Positions 4,012 to 60,152 of a stretch of DNA of 64,000 nucleotides are shown piece by piece. This DNA comes from a virus. The stretch lies in IMG/VR virus record IMGVR_UViG_3300021963_000090, positions 1 to 64,000 of that record; one strand, given 5' to 3'. Both the position numbers and the translations under genes were made by a program. Numbering within the stretch: the first letter of the stretch is position 1; each line of letters begins with the position of its first letter. The notes beneath the pieces were generated by a model. That model did no database searches. It saw only the letters and a list, made by a program, of their open reading frames with translations, and was not told the origin of the DNA.

Positions 4012-4024
4012 AAAATCTCCTTTG

Positions 4025-4098
4025 TGCAACAGGTAGGACTTGAACCTACGATAGCCGAATTATGAGTTCGGGGCCTTAACCAACTTGGCTACTGTTGC
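4025..4098 (-). tRNA. tRNA with CAU anticodon (Met or Ile2)
   Basis: A 74-nt cloverleaf: acceptor GCAACAG/CTGTTGC (7 bp), D arm GCC/GGC, anticodon stem CCGAA/TTCGG with loop CTCATAA (anticodon CAT), T stem GTAGG/CCTAC with loop TTCAAGT, discriminator A. CCA is not encoded. A CAU tRNA may be elongator Met or, after lysidine modification, Ile for AUA codons. ATA codons are common in these genes, so the Ile2 role is attractive but not proven from sequence. Confidence 0.9.
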
Positions 4099-4105
4099 CA
4101 AGTAT

Positions 4106-4357
4106 CTATTGTAACGTGCCATCTTCATTTTTGTCAATGGTTTCTTCAACTACTTGCTGTACATATTCAGAAAAATGTTTTCTAATATTACCCATTGGTC
4201 TAGTCCCCAAGGACTTCCATATTCTTTTATACTCTACAATATTTGCAAACGTGGTGGGGCAGACCTGTATACCATTATACTCTTTTAATACTGTTGGTAG
4301 CGGTACGTGTTTTCCACAACATTTACATTCTTTAGCTTTTTCTTGGTATATACTCAT
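4106..4357 (-). CDS. Small Cys-rich protein after terminase
   Basis: 83 residues. The N-terminal half has a CKCCGKH cluster and one later Cys (QVCPTT), a possible single zinc site. The C-terminal half is helical and charged (VQQVVEETIDKNEDG). The ATG overlaps the terminase stop as ATGA, so it is translated with terminase. No family is recognised; a DNA-packaging accessory role is possible from position only. Confidence 0.6.
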   Translation of the reverse strand: MSIYQEKAKECKCCGKHVPLPTVLKEYNGIQVCPTTFANIVEYKRIWKSLGTRPMGNIRKHFSEYVQQVVEETIDKNEDGTLQ

Positions 4358-6144
4358 ACTATTTCCATTCCGTCTAATACATCAGATAAATCTTTCGGCA
4401 TTCTTGGTGCCCTGATCATGTTTGTTACTATGGTGTCATCCTCATTTTCTCTATCCCACTTTAGAGAACTATAAGTATGTATATCTATTTCTTCATTGTT
4501 TTGTGGCCTACTTCTACTAATAGCATTATAAATAGATCCACAAACTGCGTCCGCCAAGTCTTTTGACCCCTTTCTTGGGTGGTCAACTCTGTCTCTCATA
4601 ATTTTTAACTGCAATAATTCATCGATAAGAAGTTTTATTGCTGGCCCAGTTAGTCTATCTTCCGCAACAACCATCGCCATATCATCGTAATGCTTTTTTG
4701 CAACAGATAATGTTTCAGTATTAATTCCGTACTGCTTTAGCTGTTGCATCATATCGTGTGAGTTCCAGCGGTCAAATGTGCATACACGAATTTTAAATCC
4801 CTTAGTTCTAAGAGACAAAATATAATCTTTGACTTCTGTAAAATCAACAGATTTATCTGCGGTTGGTGTCCAGTATCTAACTGCATCAACTTCTACAATT
4901 GGTGCTGGCTGAGAGTAGGTATCAGTTACTTTTACATTTACCCATTTCTGCACATGTGCCATAGCAACTGCACAATGGTCATGCTTTTGTGCAAGGTCTA
5001 CGTGCAAGAAATATTCTTTATCTGGGTCTGGAGCAAACCAATCTTCAAACCTTCCAAACTCATCTACTGCAAGCGCCATATTGTTAAAAGATTTTTCTAT
5101 CTTTTCTCTAGACTTAAAGAAAGCATCAATCGCTTCGGCTGGCATGCATGCGAATCTACCTAAAGCATCTGGTGCATTTTTATAGAACGCTACCTTAAAA
5201 TCGTCTATGCTTCTTGTAGGGTTAATCTCCCATGTTGGTCTTTTAAGGGCATACATTCTTGGATACTTATAGGACAAGATATGATCTTCTTCCCATTCAA
5301 TATCAAACTCGTTGCCGTCGGTTCCGTCTGGCAAGTCTGTATCTAGCTTAAAATGATGCGACCTAATAACAGTTTCTTTTTCAGCAATAACGTCATCATA
5401 TCTTTGCTGAATATAATCATTTTTGTATCTAGGGAATGAAAGAAGAATTACTTTGCCATAGTCTGGGAAACGAGAATCAACTGATGCCCTATACATCTCA
5501 TAAATAGCGCTACCAGTCTTTGCCTGCTCATGCCCCGTTGTGTTCTCAATACTAAAGCCAGAAATTTCGTCTAGGATAACAACAATTACGTTATACCCTT
5601 CCCAAGCCTCACGCTCTGAGTGACCTGAATGAACTGTAATATTCTTATTAAATTTAATTTCAGAAGCTTTTTCTGAATACTTTCCTACAAACCATGGAGA
5701 CTTGTCTATTCTTGTTCTAAATCCTTTAAAAAAAACGTTGCTTGCCTGCTGTGCGTTAATAGCAATATTGATGATATCAATAGAATCCCCAGGAGGCTTA
5801 CCGTAATAGTGTGCTGGATCTTTTAAACATAATAGTAAATAAACTATATAGGCAACAGAAATAGTTGAGCAATAATCTTTTCCAGACCCCTTGCCCAGTT
5901 GAGCAACAACCTCGTTAGCAGTCTGTTTATATGTTCTCTTGCCTTCTTCTTCGCCAAATAGTTTTATTAAGGTTGATTCTTTATAAACCTGAGAAGACTT
6001 TTCAATTAATGTATATTGATATTCTGAAAGTGGTGGCAGTCCAAGAAACTCTGGACTAGTTACAAATGTGCGTAGATCTACTGGACGCTCATCAAACTCT
6101 TCGCCATCTAAGATATCAATAAGATCATTAAAATTAAGATCCAC
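4354..6144 (-). CDS. terL: Terminase large subunit
   Basis: 596 residues, the usual size for a packaging ATPase-nuclease. The ATPase domain has Walker A GKGSGKD at about residues 84-90 and Walker B VIVVILDEIS near 186-195. The C-terminal RNase H-like nuclease has an acidic strand in HVDLAQKHDH, a second Asp in VCTFDRWNSHD and a third in KDLADAVCG. It cuts concatemeric DNA and pumps it into the procapsid through the portal. It overlaps the upstream small-subunit-like gene by 11 nt. Notably it lies at the end of the replication gene block rather than next to the portal gene, some 40 kb away. Confidence 0.92.
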   Translation of the reverse strand: MDLNFNDLIDILDGEEFDERPVDLRTFVTSPEFLGLPPLSEYQYTLIEKSSQVYKESTLIKLFGEEEGKRTYKQTANEVVAQLGKGSGKDYCSTISVAYIVYLLLCLKDPAHYYGKPPGDSIDIINIAINAQQASNVFFKGFRTRIDKSPWFVGKYSEKASEIKFNKNITVHSGHSEREAWEGYNVIVVILDEISGFSIENTTGHEQAKTGSAIYEMYRASVDSRFPDYGKVILLSFPRYKNDYIQQRYDDVIAEKETVIRSHHFKLDTDLPDGTDGNEFDIEWEEDHILSYKYPRMYALKRPTWEINPTRSIDDFKVAFYKNAPDALGRFACMPAEAIDAFFKSREKIEKSFNNMALAVDEFGRFEDWFAPDPDKEYFLHVDLAQKHDHCAVAMAHVQKWVNVKVTDTYSQPAPIVEVDAVRYWTPTADKSVDFTEVKDYILSLRTKGFKIRVCTFDRWNSHDMMQQLKQYGINTETLSVAKKHYDDMAMVVAEDRLTGPAIKLLIDELLQLKIMRDRVDHPRKGSKDLADAVCGSIYNAISRSRPQNNEEIDIHTYSSLKWDRENEDDTIVTNMIRAPRMPKDLSDVLDGMEIV

Positions 6145-50930: not shown

Positions 50931-53150
50931 TTAGTAGTTTAGATTTGAGTTTGCAAAAACAATCCAACTGCTTCCTGATCTAATGAAAGTAAATGAGAAT
51001 ACATCTATTTTATTTGCAGAAGATGTTGGTAGCGGAGCCTGACCATTTGGCCAACGAATTGTTTGATTTGTTCCACTAATCTGAATAGTTGTTGGAAGAT
51101 ATCCAGTTGAGCCTTGAGTTACAAGTACGTTTACTGTCATAACCTTATCATTATCTGTTGGCATGTTAGTAAAGTTAAATGTCATGTTTCCTGTTGGAGC
51201 CGTTGAAATATAATAAATGTTTCCAAGTGCCCAATCGCATGTAGCTGTATTTGTAGATAATGTAACAGGAACTAGATTTTCTCTTAATTCTTGAATATCT
51301 ACAGTACCGCTAAGAGATACTGTTCCAGTAGCTGTAAGCCCTCCAGTAATTCCTACTGTTCCTGTAGCTGTAATTGATCCCGAAGTAATAGCGCCAGTTC
51401 TAATATCTGCGTATGTTAATGAACCCTGGGAGAAGTCAAGTGTATTAGTTGGCTTTGTTGTTGCACCCTTGAAGAATTTAAATACTCCATCTGATGCATC
51501 ACGCAATACTCCAGCGTATTTTGTTCCGCTTGACACGTATTCACCAACAAGTCCTAAATCGATTGCATCTCCTGTATTGCCATCAGCAACGAATACGATT
51601 GGAAAAGCCACTTCGAGAGTTTGTACACCAGTTTGTGAACCAGATCCACCGAAGGAAAGATTGCCTGCGATATTTACATCACCCTGGATACCGACTCCTC
51701 CAACAATTGTTACTGCACCAGTAGATGGTGAAGTTGATGGTGTTGCAATTTCAATATGCATATTGCCAGGACGTACACCAGTTTTTGGTGGTGTAATTAC
51801 AACCTGAACATTTTCTTCATCATCAAATCCTCCAGCTGCGAGAACAATTGAGTTATCTGATCCATTTGCTCCAGTAGCAATTACTAGATTTCCGTCTCCA
51901 GTAGTTATTGCTGGTGCTTCATAAAATATATAACCATCATGTGGTCCTGTTATTCCAAATGTTGTCTGTGAAAATGTTGAGCCAGTAACACCCATATCGA
52001 TCCAGCCAGCGGTATCATTTCCAGTATCGGCATAAGCAATAAAGTCTGTTGATGAATTTGCTGATTGGTTATGGATTGCAACCTGTGCAAACGGCTCACC
52101 ATTTAATTCAAATACCGCACCTGGATTTGTTAAGTCTGCAGAAGTTTCAAATGTTCTAGCATTTTGACCTACATATACTGTTCCAGTAAGAGCTGTATCT
52201 CCTACGATATTTACGTTTTGTGAGAAGTCTACTTCTGTTGTTGAAATAACAATTTGCTCGGCACCACTTTGTAGTCCACCCGCCGCAATAATAATATTAT
52301 TAGATAAACCAGTAGAATCTGTTGCAAGCACTAGGTTGCCATCTCCTGTAAACTTGTTAACCTGTGAGTTAATAACTGATGTTAAAGCAATGTTTCCTGC
52401 TGTGTATCCTGCGGGAACTGCAACTACAACCTGTGTTGAAGTTGGTGCTGAAACAACTGTATATCGACCTTCTAAGGTCGGAGCCACTGGAAGAATTAAG
52501 TCAAAGATCACTCCAGCAATCATTTGATGTGGAGTTCCAGTAATAAGATTTAGGCTTGAGCCCGCAACGCTATACTGACTTACTGTAACAACTCCCGCAA
52601 TAGCACCTGACATAAATACATATCCATCGCCAGGTCCTGTCAACGAAAATGCAGGGTCATTAAAAGATTGATTAGTAATACCCATATCGATCCAGCCTGA
52701 CTCATTTGTACCATTTGAGGCATACGCAATGAAGTCGGCGGAAGATGATAAACCAGCTCCTGTATTCACAAGGGCTGTTTGAACAAAACTATTTGAAGAT
52801 CCTTCAATACCTAAAGCTACATCTGTTAAATCTGCAGCAGTAATAAAGTCTGTAATATCTTCGCCAATTAAAAATGTATCGAAAGAATCAGACCAGAATG
52901 TGAGGGTTCCGTCTGTCTTTAATACTTTGCCTGCTTGACCTTCGGTTGGTGGGATTTCAGAACCTTCCACCATACGTGTCCAGTAATCTGTATCTGTAAT
53001 GACTTCGCCAGTTGATGGGACTTCATTTGTATAAATCCAAACAATATTATTATATCGAACAACGTCGTTTAACTTATACTCTACTTCAGTATCCCAATCC
53101 CCTTTCCAAATAAAGCGGATTGATCCAAGATTAATAATTTGCGTTGCCAT
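50931..53150 (-). CDS. Tail fibre protein, copy 1
   Basis: 739 residues. It begins with a carbohydrate-binding-module-like unit (FIWKGDWDTEVEYKLNDVVR, then IVWIYTNEVPS), followed by Gly/Thr/Ser-rich beta repeats (TDFIAYASNGTNESGWIDMG and a near repeat further on). It ends with a domain (VLVTQGSTGYLPTTIQISG, IDVFSFTFIRSGSSWIVF) shared with the 724- and 264-residue fibres. Repeated modules fit a trimeric fibre. A paralogue lies beyond the halogenase cassette. Confidence 0.78.
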   Translation of the reverse strand: MATQIINLGSIRFIWKGDWDTEVEYKLNDVVRYNNIVWIYTNEVPSTGEVITDTDYWTRMVEGSEIPPTEGQAGKVLKTDGTLTFWSDSFDTFLIGEDITDFITAADLTDVALGIEGSSNSFVQTALVNTGAGLSSSADFIAYASNGTNESGWIDMGITNQSFNDPAFSLTGPGDGYVFMSGAIAGVVTVSQYSVAGSSLNLITGTPHQMIAGVIFDLILPVAPTLEGRYTVVSAPTSTQVVVAVPAGYTAGNIALTSVINSQVNKFTGDGNLVLATDSTGLSNNIIIAAGGLQSGAEQIVISTTEVDFSQNVNIVGDTALTGTVYVGQNARTFETSADLTNPGAVFELNGEPFAQVAIHNQSANSSTDFIAYADTGNDTAGWIDMGVTGSTFSQTTFGITGPHDGYIFYEAPAITTGDGNLVIATGANGSDNSIVLAAGGFDDEENVQVVITPPKTGVRPGNMHIEIATPSTSPSTGAVTIVGGVGIQGDVNIAGNLSFGGSGSQTGVQTLEVAFPIVFVADGNTGDAIDLGLVGEYVSSGTKYAGVLRDASDGVFKFFKGATTKPTNTLDFSQGSLTYADIRTGAITSGSITATGTVGITGGLTATGTVSLSGTVDIQELRENLVPVTLSTNTATCDWALGNIYYISTAPTGNMTFNFTNMPTDNDKVMTVNVLVTQGSTGYLPTTIQISGTNQTIRWPNGQAPLPTSSANKIDVFSFTFIRSGSSWIVFANSNLNY

Positions 53151-53992: not shown

Positions 53993-54021
53993 TTGAATCT
54001 AGGGTATAGAAATGGTATACT
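53993..54021 (+). promoter_or_regulatory. Promoter of halogenase cassette
   Basis: TTGAAT (53993-53998), 17-nt spacer ending in TGG, TATACT (54016-54021). A near-consensus extended promoter pointing right; transcription would start near 54028 and give a leader of about 40 nt with no clear ribosome site. Confidence 0.7.
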
Positions 54022-54066
54022 AAAGGCCTAGCAAACAAATTTAAATATTTTGCTTCTTATACAGTT

Positions 54067-55677
54067 ATGGATATTATGAAAACCGATAAAATAGTAATAG
54101 TTGGAGGCGGATCTGCTGGCTGGATGACTGCTGCTACATTAATTAAAGCTTTTCCGAATAAAGACATTTCAGTCATTGAGTCTAAAGATGTTCCTACTGT
54201 TGGTGTAGGAGAGTCAACTATTGGTGGAATAAGAACATGGACCAGATATATAGGGCTTGATGAATCTACCTTCTTCAAACAAACCGATGCCTCTTTAAAA
54301 CTAAGTATTAAATTTACAGATTTTTATAAAAAGGATGGCGGGTCATTTCATTATCCATTTGGACAGGCTGATGTTATTAACAATAGAAATCCATTTTTTG
54401 ACTGGCAATTAAAAAAATATTTTTATCCAGAAACTCCAATTGAGGATTTTGTAAGATGCCTTTTCCCAGCTTCGGCTTTATTTGAAAACAATAAATTTTC
54501 TTTAAATAATTCAGGGGATTTTGATCACTTTGATGCCGCTAACGATGTTGCGTATCATTTTGATGCAACTAAATTTGGAGTGTGGCTTAGAGAAAACTAT
54601 TGTATTCCTAATGGAGTAAAACATATTATAGCAACTGTTTTAGAAACACCAAACGACCAAAACGGAATTAAGCACCTTGTCCTAGATAATGAAGATATTG
54701 TTGAAGCTGATTTATTTATTGATTGTACTGGCTTTAAAAGTCTTTTGCTAGATAAGGCTTTAAATGAACCATTTGACTCGCTATCCAAAATGCTACCAAA
54801 CAATAGGGCTTGGGCTACTAGAATTGAATATGAAAATAAAGATATTGAATTAGAAGGTTTTACTAACTGTACAGCTATTGAAAACGGATGGTGCTGGAAT
54901 ATTCCTTTATGGTCTAGAATAGGAACTGGCTATGTATACTCTGATAAATTTGTAACTCCAGAAGAAGCAAAAGAAGAATTTAAAAGATATCTAATGTCGG
55001 ACAAGATGGTTATTCCACGAACTAAGGAGCAGGTAGATGCTCTTGAGTTTAAAGAAATAACTATGCGTGTTGGAATACATAAAAGAACTTTTGTTAAAAA
55101 TGTTGTAGCTATTGGCTTATCGGCTGGCTTTATTGAGCCACTTGAGAGCAACGGACTGTTTAGTGTTCATGAATTTTTATTTAATCTTATAGACATACTA
55201 CAGCGTGGAGAAATATCTCAATTTGATAGGGATATGTATAATGTAAGTACTCGTGACCTATTTGATCAATTTTCTAAATTTGTTGCCCTTCACTATGCCC
55301 TATCGCATAGAGATGACACAGAATACTGGAAAGACATTAATACTAAAGAATTTAAAGATGAAATTTCAAATGATCCGTATACCCCAAATAGGACGAAGGC
55401 TGGGGCCTTCTATGATATTATTGGGCGTTATATGGAAGAATGGTTTCATCCATACGGAATGGCTGGTATTACATATATAGCAACAGGAATGAATCTTCAA
55501 ATGATAAACGACAATAGGATTGCAAATATGACTTATAGATATAAGCGTGACTACTTATCAGAAGCGGATGCCATTTCTGAAATATGGGAAAACAAAAAAG
55601 CTAAATGGAATAAGGCTGCAGAATCGTCTCCTAGCCTTAAAAAATTTTTAGAGGACACATTTTATGGCAAAGAATAG
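54067..55677 (+). CDS. Flavin-dependent tryptophan halogenase family enzyme
   Basis: 536 residues, normal length for the family. FAD-binding GGGSAGW at 13-19. Lys78 in ASLKLSIKF matches the catalytic Lys of PrnA-type enzymes (K79). The WxWxIP signature is complete at 275-280 (WCWNIP). GLSAGFIEPLESNGLF at 350-365 carries the conserved Glu-Ser pair. So the enzyme should make HOCl or HOBr from FADH2, O2 and halide and halogenate an aromatic substrate. No flavin reductase is seen, so host FADH2 must be used. Substrate unknown: free Trp, an indole metabolite or a Trp side chain. It is on the plus strand, alone with two genes, under its own promoter. Start at 54067 or ATG 54076. Confidence 0.88.
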   Translation: MDIMKTDKIVIVGGGSAGWMTAATLIKAFPNKDISVIESKDVPTVGVGESTIGGIRTWTRYIGLDESTFFKQTDASLKLSIKFTDFYKKDGGSFHYPFGQADVINNRNPFFDWQLKKYFYPETPIEDFVRCLFPASALFENNKFSLNNSGDFDHFDAANDVAYHFDATKFGVWLRENYCIPNGVKHIIATVLETPNDQNGIKHLVLDNEDIVEADLFIDCTGFKSLLLDKALNEPFDSLSKMLPNNRAWATRIEYENKDIELEGFTNCTAIENGWCWNIPLWSRIGTGYVYSDKFVTPEEAKEEFKRYLMSDKMVIPRTKEQVDALEFKEITMRVGIHKRTFVKNVVAIGLSAGFIEPLESNGLFSVHEFLFNLIDILQRGEISQFDRDMYNVSTRDLFDQFSKFVALHYALSHRDDTEYWKDINTKEFKDEISNDPYTPNRTKAGAFYDIIGRYMEEWFHPYGMAGITYIATGMNLQMINDNRIANMTYRYKRDYLSEADAISEIWENKKAKWNKAAESSPSLKKFLEDTFYGKE

Positions 55678-55951
55678 GTATGAGTGGGTATATGCTTTAT
55701 CTAGAATGAAAGATAGATCATATTGGAATAGGCCAAATACTGTAGAATTTTTTGCTTTTATGACCAAGCTTTCTATTATATTTCCAGGGCTTTTATTTGG
55801 TAAGCAATGGTGGTGGCTATATATATTTGCTTTAGTTTCTAGTTTAGCTTTAATTTGGTCTTCTACAGTAAAGACCCTGCCTACAATAATCTTGTTTAAT
55901 ATAGGATGGTCTATATTAGCATCAGCTGCAATAATTAAGGCTTTAACATGA
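55664..55951 (+). CDS. Small membrane protein in halogenase cassette
   Basis: 95 residues. A polar N-terminus (MAKNRYEWVYALSRMKDR) is followed by two or three hydrophobic helices at about 33-47, 49-66 and 71-93, with a Trp-rich turn (GKQWWWLYIF). It overlaps the halogenase stop by 14 nt (GAGGA ribosome site inside the halogenase) and the next gene by ATGA. It may anchor or transport something for the pathway; inference only. Confidence 0.65.
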   Translation: MAKNRYEWVYALSRMKDRSYWNRPNTVEFFAFMTKLSIIFPGLLFGKQWWWLYIFALVSSLALIWSSTVKTLPTIILFNIGWSILASAAIIKALT

Positions 55952-56673
55952 GCAAAAAAGAACCAGTGATTGTATATTGGTCTCCATACTCTAACCCACA
56001 CAGGGTTTCTTATGTTAACCTATTATGTGAGCCCCCTAAAAAAGTATTAACCACAATAGGATCACCCGTTTCTAATAAAAAAGCATCTTATCATAACTGC
56101 AGATCTCTTCAAAATTTAATGAAAAATACTTACATCATACCAGCACCACTGTCATCTAAATTAAAAATATCTGGATCTTTTGAAGAGCCATTTCTAACTA
56201 CAGATAACAATCTATGGAATGCTAGAAGTGCTTCTTTAGATAAAAGATACTCTGTTGACTATGATTTTAGCTGGATCTTTTTTTCAGAAGAGCAGGTTAC
56301 TCTTAGAGAGACACATCCATATATGCATAATACGGCTTTTTCAAAATCTGGATATCTAGCATCTGGATCATTTGAAATTAATAAATGGTTTAGGCCAATA
56401 AATATAACATTTAACTTATGGGAAGACCATAATTCTATTGAGGTTATTGAAAAAGAGCCATTATGTTATGTAGAGTTTGAAACATTAGACAACAGGCCAG
56501 TTATTCTTAAACAATTTGAATTGACAGAAGATATGTATAATTACTGCACTCAGGCTTTAATTACTTCAAAAAACATTCTGTCTTTTGAATCACTAGAGTC
56601 TTTATATTCTAGATTTATAGGTTCAAATAGACATAAAAAAATAGCTAAACTAATAAAGCAAAACCTACTATAA
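55948..56673 (+). CDS. Unrecognised protein in halogenase cassette
   Basis: 241 residues. Cues: PVIVYWSPYSNPHRVSYVNL at the start, then LWNARSASLDKRYSVDY, ETHPYMHNTAF, the striking GSFEINKWFRPINITF, and EPLCYVEFET. The C-terminal part is helical. It resembles, from memory, an uncharacterised phage/bacterial family (possibly DUF6065), which I cannot confirm. It is coupled by ATGA to the membrane protein and is the last gene of the cassette. It may be a tailoring enzyme or substrate partner of the halogenase. Confidence 0.6.
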   Translation: MSKKEPVIVYWSPYSNPHRVSYVNLLCEPPKKVLTTIGSPVSNKKASYHNCRSLQNLMKNTYIIPAPLSSKLKISGSFEEPFLTTDNNLWNARSASLDKRYSVDYDFSWIFFSEEQVTLRETHPYMHNTAFSKSGYLASGSFEINKWFRPINITFNLWEDHNSIEVIEKEPLCYVEFETLDNRPVILKQFELTEDMYNYCTQALITSKNILSFESLESLYSRFIGSNRHKKIAKLIKQNLL

Positions 56674-57977: not shown

Positions 57978-60152
57978 TTAGAAGTTTAAGTTGTATGAAC
58001 CCAAAACTATCCAGGCTCCACCTGAAGTTCTAAGTAATGTAAATGTAAATATGTCTAGTTTACCAGCAGATGATGTTGCAGTTGGAGCCGCACCTGCTGA
58101 CCATCTAATTGTCTGAGAAGTTCCAGCAATCTGGAATGTTGTTGGAATATAACCAGTTGATCCCTGTGTAACAACAATGTTAATTGTCATTACCTTTGCT
58201 GAATCTGATGGAACATTTGTTGCATTAAATGTCATATTACCAGTTGGTGCTGTACCAATATAGTAAATGTTTCCTAGCGACCAATCAAGTGTTCCTACGT
58301 TTGATGCCAATGTAACATCTACAATTTGTTCACGCATCTCTTGAATATCTACTGTTCCGCTTAATGATACTGCTCCAGAGGCTGTTAATCCGCCAGGGGC
58401 TGTAATTAAACCAGAAGTATTAAGTGTTGTTGCTGTAATCCCAGCAGTTCGCAGATCTGCATACGCAAGTCCTGCACCTGAGAAGTTAACTACTCCAGCA
58501 GAAGGAGCTACGGTTGAATCTTTAAATATCTTTACTACACCGTCTGAGGCATCACGTACTAATCCTGCGTATTTAACTACACCGCCAGATGTGTACTCTC
58601 CAACAAGCCCTAGATCTATAGCATCTGATGTGTTTCCTGATCCTACACGAACGATTGGATCTGTTACTGTAAGGGTTGTCGTTGTGAGAGTTGTTCCAGC
58701 GCCTCCAAACGTAATGTCGCCTGCAATATTTACGTCGCCTTGAATACCAACGCCACCTACTACTGTTAATGCACCTGTTGATGGCGATGTAGAAGGAGTT
58801 GGAATTTCAATGTGTACACGCTCATCTGGAATAATGACCATTTGCTCATTACCAGAATCATATCCGCCTGCTGCAAATACAATCTTGTTTTCCGATCCAT
58901 TGGCACCTGTTGCTAAGACAAGATTTCCTGCACCTGTTGTGCCAGATGGTGCTTCATAAAAAATATATCCATCATTTGGACCCGTAATGCCGAATGTAGC
59001 TTGGCTGAATGAAGATCCTGTAACACCCATATCAATCCAGCCTGATAAGTCATCTCCATTATTTGCATATGCAATATAATCTGTAGAAGAGTTAGCTGAA
59101 TTATTATGAATAGCTATTTGAGCATAAGGAGATCCATTTAATTCAAATACTGCGGCAGCATTAGTTAGCTCTGCATTTATATTAAATGCTTTTGCGCCAG
59201 TTCCAAAAAAGATTTCGTCATAAATTTCAATTCCATCATCTGGAGTAAAAATCATTTGTTCGTTACCGCTTGTCAAACCACCAGAAGCAATAACAATGTT
59301 GTTTGAAAGACCTGTTGAATCAGTTGCAAAAACTAGCTTGCCATCGCCTGTAAATTTATTTATTTGAGAGTTAATAACGTTTGTTAAGGCCACGTTTCCA
59401 GAAGTATATCCTGCAGGTGTTGCAACAACAATCTGCGTTGTGCTTGGTGCTGAAACAACTGTATAGCGACCCTCTAATGTTGGAGCTACTGGAAGAATTA
59501 AATCAAAGATGACTCCAGCAATCATTGCATGTGGACCATCAGTAATAAGGTTTAGGTTTGAACCCGCAACGCTATACTGATCTACAGAGACTATACCAGC
59601 GATTGCTCCAGACATAAATACATATCCGTCGCCAGGTCCTGTAAGTGAAAATGTTGGATCATTAAATGATCCGTTAGTAATACCCATGTCTATCCAACCA
59701 GACTCATTTGTACCATTTGATGTATACGCAATAAAGTCTGCAGAAGATGATGCACCAGATCCTGTGTTAACCAATGCTGTTTGAACGAAAGATGTAGAGG
59801 ATCCTTCAATACCAAGAGCTACGTCGGTTAAGTCTGCGGCTGTAATAAAGTCTGTAATGTCTGCACCAATTAAGAATGTATCAAATGAGTCAGACCAAAA
59901 TGTTAGTGTGCCATCGGTCTTAAGAACCTTACCTGCTTGATTCTCTGTTGGAGGAATTTCTGATCCCTCAACCATGCGTGACCAATAAACTGTACTTGTA
60001 ATAAGATTATTTGCTGATGGGATTTGATTAATGTATACCCATACAATATTGTTATAACGAACTACGTCATTTAGTTCGTATGTGTTTGCCTGTACCCAGT
60101 CGCCCTTCCAAATGAAGCGAATGTTTCCTAAATCGATTAATTGTGTTGCCAT
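57978..60152 (-). CDS. Tail fibre protein, copy 2
   Basis: 724 residues, paralogue of the 739-residue fibre. The CBM-like start (FIWKGDWVQANTYELNDVVR) and much of the body agree closely; the C-terminal domain (VVTQGSTGYIPTTFQIAGTS) is shared too. The 264-residue fibre at 62502 shares only this C-terminal domain. Ribosome site GGAG before the downstream gene suggests the module is one transcript. Confidence 0.78.
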   Translation of the reverse strand: MATQLIDLGNIRFIWKGDWVQANTYELNDVVRYNNIVWVYINQIPSANNLITSTVYWSRMVEGSEIPPTENQAGKVLKTDGTLTFWSDSFDTFLIGADITDFITAADLTDVALGIEGSSTSFVQTALVNTGSGASSSADFIAYTSNGTNESGWIDMGITNGSFNDPTFSLTGPGDGYVFMSGAIAGIVSVDQYSVAGSNLNLITDGPHAMIAGVIFDLILPVAPTLEGRYTVVSAPSTTQIVVATPAGYTSGNVALTNVINSQINKFTGDGKLVFATDSTGLSNNIVIASGGLTSGNEQMIFTPDDGIEIYDEIFFGTGAKAFNINAELTNAAAVFELNGSPYAQIAIHNNSANSSTDYIAYANNGDDLSGWIDMGVTGSSFSQATFGITGPNDGYIFYEAPSGTTGAGNLVLATGANGSENKIVFAAGGYDSGNEQMVIIPDERVHIEIPTPSTSPSTGALTVVGGVGIQGDVNIAGDITFGGAGTTLTTTTLTVTDPIVRVGSGNTSDAIDLGLVGEYTSGGVVKYAGLVRDASDGVVKIFKDSTVAPSAGVVNFSGAGLAYADLRTAGITATTLNTSGLITAPGGLTASGAVSLSGTVDIQEMREQIVDVTLASNVGTLDWSLGNIYYIGTAPTGNMTFNATNVPSDSAKVMTINIVVTQGSTGYIPTTFQIAGTSQTIRWSAGAAPTATSSAGKLDIFTFTLLRTSGGAWIVLGSYNLNF

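Follow-up and report, generated by a model that had tools for sequence, protein, structure and literature searches.

The flavin-dependent halogenase encoded by this virus almost certainly has a true partner gene, whose product is a small membrane protein that we call HPM (a name coined in this analysis for the 95-aa protein). During infection, the two proteins probably act together on a halogenated molecule, which they would produce and either transport or bind. The window, i.e., the whole stretch of 64,000 nucleotides that was analysed, belongs to an IMG/VR virus record of 78,281 bases, and the cassette comprises the following features:

53993..54021, plus strand: promoter-like TTGAAT-17-TATACT with an extended -10, as a match not above chance
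54076..55677, plus strand: VirX1-type flavin-dependent halogenase; the ORF opens at 54067 and has 536 aa (PF04820, phrog_2928, 6qgm, catalytic motifs)
55650..55655, plus strand: Shine-Dalgarno-like AGAGGA before the HPM gene, read directly in the sequence
55664..55951, plus strand: HPM, 95-aa membrane protein with three TM helices, conserved partner of the halogenase (relatives' loci, alignment, model, fold matches)
55948..56673, plus strand: 241-aa protein of the phrog_17480 family with a dUTPase-like beta fold, probable passenger (related loci, AF2 model, Foldseek/VIA)

Three intact, translationally coupled plus-strand genes had been described in the first-pass annotation, and the ORFs and their overlaps confirm this. 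The halogenase and HPM genes overlap by 14 nt, and the HPM and 241-aa genes by 4 nt (ATGA), which supports translational coupling; the AGAGGA site lies 8 nt upstream of the HPM ATG. Since halogenase homologues align from Met4 of the 536-aa ORF, the true start of the enzyme is probably 54076 and not 54067. The claim that this is the only plus-strand block looks right by the ORF list, small plus-strand ORFs (e.g., 4095-4415) aside. As for the promoter, the site is indeed there, with 9/12 matches, a 17-nt spacer and an extended -10; however, such sites number 19 in the region versus 16.4 +/- 4.1 in shuffles. The match is therefore not above chance, and we do not accept it as proof of independent transcription.

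Minus-strand fibre genes flank the three ORFs on both sides. More precisely, a fibre module is present on each side of the cassette (50931-53150 and 57978-60152, both on the minus strand), and its two copies contain direct repeats as long as 824 bp with 79% DNA identity. The two flanking fibre proteins are 70% identical to each other, and each copy of the module also has a glycine-rich protein and a 103/120-aa protein.

The evidence for the pairing comes from two samples of loci. In the first one, viral contigs were searched with HPM alone as the query, yielding 390 loci, of which the best 80 were examined for a halogenase. It was present in 72 of these 80; a halogenase ORF of at least 300 aa was found in 71, and in 70 of the 71 it lay no more than 30 nt from HPM. 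Both gene orders occur among the 70 tight pairs, halogenase-HPM in 62 and HPM-halogenase in eight. Three of the eight best loci without a halogenase end at a contig edge (L049, L066, L115), and L108 has no halogenase beside HPM, but one farther along the contig. In the remaining four (L084, L085, L098, L095), HPM occurs with no halogenase on 13-26 kb of contig. The second sample consisted of 80 loci picked by the 241-aa gene, and not by the halogenase or HPM. Both partners were found in 10 of them, HPM only in three, the halogenase only in two and neither in 65; such co-occurrence corresponds to a Fisher p of 1e-8, or 6e-5 to 2e-6 with near-duplicates roughly removed.

It is also important to consider the loci where the two genes are separated. 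In G018, G025 and G027, the halogenase lacks a neighbouring HPM, and HPM is located elsewhere on the contig; the usual slot in G027 holds HPM without a halogenase, and another halogenase is encoded near the contig end (L033). Overall, when HPM is not adjacent, a halogenase is often found elsewhere on the contig, as in L108 and G018. The contexts of the pair vary as well, including fibre loci, a nuclease/WhiB region and a position between primase and ssDNA-binding genes. As many pairs thus lie far from fibre genes, we rejected fibre modification as the role of the halogenase.

One might suppose that the halogenase and HPM are mere neighbours, i.e., two cargo genes that have nothing to do with each other and happen to share a variable fibre locus. 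The locus is indeed a hot spot: in L006, the same flanks (F44, F91) enclose another gene set, composed of HPM, a 2OG oxygenase and a halogenase, and the presence of 2OG-oxygenase and DUF6065-like genes varies there. Such an explanation does apply to the 241-aa gene (see below). For the halogenase and HPM, however, it is highly improbable and already contradicted by their linkage in the HPM-based sample, by both gene orders, by the many unlike contexts and by co-occurrence of the two genes even when unlinked. The membrane-protein partner proposed in the first-pass annotation is thus borne out. The same annotation considered that halogenase homologues lacking both neighbouring genes would speak against its proposal; this proved true for the 241-aa gene and only in part for HPM, since several VirX1-like and other phage halogenases, including cyanophage ones, occur without HPM.

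Relatives of HPM were found neither in 50,697 GenBank phage records nor, with a pattern search and tblastn, among 84,980 prokaryote species genomes; this last result led us to reject HPM as a host-derived gene.

Several peculiar arrangements are worth recording here. In L108, L095 and L206, a carboxymuconolactone-decarboxylase/AhpD-like protein is encoded just upstream of HPM, in the place of the halogenase. Two loci (L010:2885-7584 and L032:1882-7527) contain three halogenase genes each, belonging to different clades of the family. In the main lineage L037-L113 (F14, F1), an APS-kinase/nucleotidyltransferase-like gene comes before many of the pairs, together with one or two genes for DUF2061 small membrane proteins.

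The halogenase itself matches the PF04820 Trp_halogenase profile with an E-value of 8e-103 (345 bits versus a curated cut-off of 21), as well as phrog_2928. All of the motifs named in the first-pass annotation are present on direct reading, GGGSAGW at 13, K78, WCWNIP at 275 and EPLES within FIEPLES at 355, so that the GxGxxG, WxWxIP, catalytic Lys and Glu of the PF04820 family are all in place. The best PDB match was VirX1 (6qgm), covering residues 4-535 of 536 (E 4e-103), i.e., a full-length alignment including the C-terminal part, as is characteristic of the VirX1 type. Most free-Trp halogenases in the PDB align only to residue 422-436 of the window enzyme; for the C-terminal Trp-binding region of PrnA/RebH/PyrH, this is read from the end points of the alignments (~422-436). 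We also aligned 74 phage halogenases, 29 and 18 from the two HPM-paired clades and 27 without HPM in view. A degraded active site, which would have counted against the original proposal, was not seen: the catalytic Lys is kept in 74/74 enzymes and Glu360 in 73/74. All 29 halogenases of one HPM-paired clade have Ala for Ser361. Judging from these features, we infer that the halogenase of the window is very likely active and that its substrate is not free Trp, or not free Trp alone.

HPM is far more uniform than the enzyme it accompanies. In an alignment of 54 sequences, 30 of ~94 columns are invariant. The proteins of L042 and the window are 78% identical for HPM and 30% for the halogenase, and where paired halogenases share 20-40% identity, HPM averages ~71%. 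Overall, HPM stays ~70-80% identical while its halogenase partners span two deep clades (~30% identical), which makes HPM the constant part of the pair and the enzyme the variable one. On a quick tree with long branches flagged, well-supported branches force at least nine state changes for the HPM-paired halogenases. The dN/dS ratio is low for both genes, with dS near saturation. HPM is also rich in tryptophan (8.4% on average, 7/95 residues in the window), and W21, W50, W51 and W82 are invariant in the 54 sequences.

Keeping in mind this composition, it is tempting to regard HPM as the substrate: the halogenase would modify one or more of the invariant Trp residues and so alter the action of HPM in the host membrane as a channel, an inhibitor or a superinfection block. 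Flavin-dependent halogenases are known to halogenate peptide Trp (MibH), and the tight translational coupling together with the extreme conservation of the small partner would fit an enzyme-substrate pair, as would the alignment of the enzyme with VirX1 throughout, beyond the point where most free-Trp halogenases stop. We nevertheless consider this reading unlikely. The invariant tryptophans are mostly inside predicted TM helices, hard for a soluble flavoenzyme to reach; conserved Lys, Glu, Asn, Pro and Gln in these helices suggest a pocket; and the two genes are far apart in L108 and G018.

The same conservation might be expected if HPM contacted a conserved host target and served, on the inner side of the membrane, to anchor or feed the halogenase. 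Hypohalous acid or halogenation would then hit a membrane target (a quinone, a carotenoid, a lipid-linked aromatic or a receptor), leading to host takeover or superinfection exclusion. Coupled expression and the N-terminal amphipathic helix of the HPM model agree with such a role. However, a single protein would need to serve as the docking site for two halogenase clades ~30% identical, no host target has been identified, and an anchor has no need of a carrier-like fold. We thus regard anchoring as rather unlikely.

The carrier-like fold just mentioned comes from an AlphaFold2 model of HPM (pLDDT 84.5, pTM 0.73), composed of an amphipathic helix and three TM helices. It matched MPC2 with Z 8.4 (rmsd 2.5, 73 residues aligned) and SemiSWEET with Z 8.1 and 8.0 (rmsd 2.0-2.2, 74 aligned), with the first unrelated row at Z 5.9; a Z of ~8 is below the ~13 that excludes a common helical arrangement. 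PQ-loop proteins were the top matches in the viral structure library, and Foldseek E-values were weak (~1). HPM resembles SemiSWEETs and MPCs in its size of ~95 aa, in the modelled amphipathic helix and three TM helices, and in two invariant residues, a Lys within TM1 and an Asn within TM3. Human MPC2 Lys49 and Asn100 have been proposed as pocket residues (PMC10909473), and K35 and N79 of HPM coincide with them when the sequences are aligned by eye; at K35, however, this register is not shared by the VIA range for TM1 versus MPC2.

In contrast to SemiSWEETs and MPCs, HPM is phage-only, tied to a halogenase and devoid of the PQ motif in TM1, with an invariant P41-G42 standing where it would be; human MPC1/2 also have no PQ. 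Nor is there support at the sequence level. The HPM profile compared with 42 SemiSWEET sequences and MPC1/2 scored within the range of shuffled controls (26/100 and 5/100 of these reached the same level), and the reversed profile scored equal or better, so we rejected sequence proof of kinship. As SemiSWEET versus MPC fails the same comparison, the test has little power. Pfam gave only scattered weak matches, and no Pfam identity was assigned. With moderate confidence, we describe HPM as a protein with a predicted carrier-like fold but stop short of assigning it to the SWEET, SemiSWEET or MPC families. Regarding the anchor-or-exporter choice left by the first-pass annotation, the modelled fold favours transport, and our confidence in a carrier role is likewise moderate.

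Considering this, our preferred reading, held tentatively and at somewhat less than an even chance, is that the pair represents a mobile two-gene phage halogenation module in which HPM carries the substrate or the halogenated product. The cytoplasmic halogenase would take FADH2, O2 and halide from the host and form hypohalous acid, as expected from family knowledge and the intact active site. Within an open pocket like that of VirX1, Lys78 would then guide the hypohalous acid to an aromatic target, a host or phage-induced metabolite in the cytoplasm. HPM might act as a dimeric half-carrier of SemiSWEET/pyruvate-carrier-like fold, perhaps with the invariant Lys35 and Asn79 within its pocket, and would import the substrate or, more likely, export the halogenated product. 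In this way, infected cells would release, or rid themselves of, a halogenated aromatic that is possibly acidic. A more specific version is possible, if a little more doubtful: that HPMs are an undescribed, phage-only family of minimal SemiSWEET/MPC-like half-carriers, re-paired with halogenases of two deep clades in a widespread system that, during infection, takes up a metabolite of the host or lets out a halogenated one. Counting against transport are the Foldseek and Z values, the profile nulls and the missing PQ motif, and also the halogenase phages without HPM, the three to four HPM contigs without a halogenase in 13-26 kb, and cyanophage VirX1, which needs no such partner.

The 241-aa protein had been called unrecognised; in fact, it matches phrog_17480. 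The beta fold of its AF2 model (pLDDT 92.8) resembles that of dUTPase and dCTP deaminase-dUTPase (Foldseek E 2e-4, VIA Z 8.3) at only 5-12% identity, and dUTPase catalysis is not expected. The family to which it belongs is large, with DUF6065-like genes as frequent neighbours, and comparison of the 241-aa and DUF6065-like profiles of these loci gave an hhalign probability of 40% (E 3e-4). A halogenase accompanies 12/80 related loci and is not in view in 68/80, and large contigs of the family mostly lack both partners. The proposed three-gene pathway was therefore rejected, and the 241-aa protein, as a probable passenger, stands outside the mechanism. In L017 and L103, too, the halogenase-HPM pair is followed by this gene, which may thus often travel with the pair as a passenger, though it is no required partner.

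The portal protein of this virus is 57-60% identical to Streptomyces phage portals, making an actinobacterial host likely; no WhiB gene was found in its record. The hosts of many uncultured phages with the halogenase-HPM pair are probably Actinobacteria as well. We rejected the idea that HPM exclusively marks phages with WhiB, i.e., actinobacterial ones: WhiB occurs in 11/22 HPM contigs, the window's own record being left out of the 22, and many WhiB contigs are without HPM. The sole tRNA in the window is tRNA-Met (CAT), at 4024-4098 on the minus strand.

Tryptophan-halogenase genes are common in aquatic phages, and our sequence search also found them in many cyanophages. While phage halogenases themselves are already known, the conserved halogenase-HPM pair is new to our knowledge; a membrane partner of a phage halogenase was not described in the literature searched. 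We know of no natural substrate of phage tryptophan halogenases, and HPM provides a handle on this question: in dissimilar phages, it almost always accompanies the halogenase, and its sequence is the better conserved of the two. The ligand or cargo of HPM is probably related to what the halogenase acts on or makes. If it is a carrier, it would represent a phage-encoded protein sharing a fold with the pyruvate carrier.

Among known systems, the WhiB-encoding lake actinophage DSL-LC01 carries a tryptophan 7-halogenase gene (PMC10611076). It is similar in having a halogenase in a WhiB lake phage; as stated above, HPM had no match in the GenBank phage records searched. In L203 (G034) and L204 (G036), a divergent halogenase with 26-27% identity to that of the window lies directly beside two WhiB genes and without HPM, an arrangement resembling that reported for DSL-LC01. 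VirX1 of cyanophage Syn10, a trimeric enzyme preferring I > Br > Cl (PMC8407142), is ~37% identical to the window's halogenase and shares its motifs along the full-length alignment. Syn10 has no HPM, and a second halogenase adjoins VirX1. The unannotated Syn10 gene directly after VirX1 (L116:7586-8374) is DUF6065-like, and such genes recur near the halogenases of these phages and beside the 241-aa family. The phage studied here has a DUF6065-like copy of its own at ~66040-66750 on the minus strand, outside the window (L035:6041-6751).
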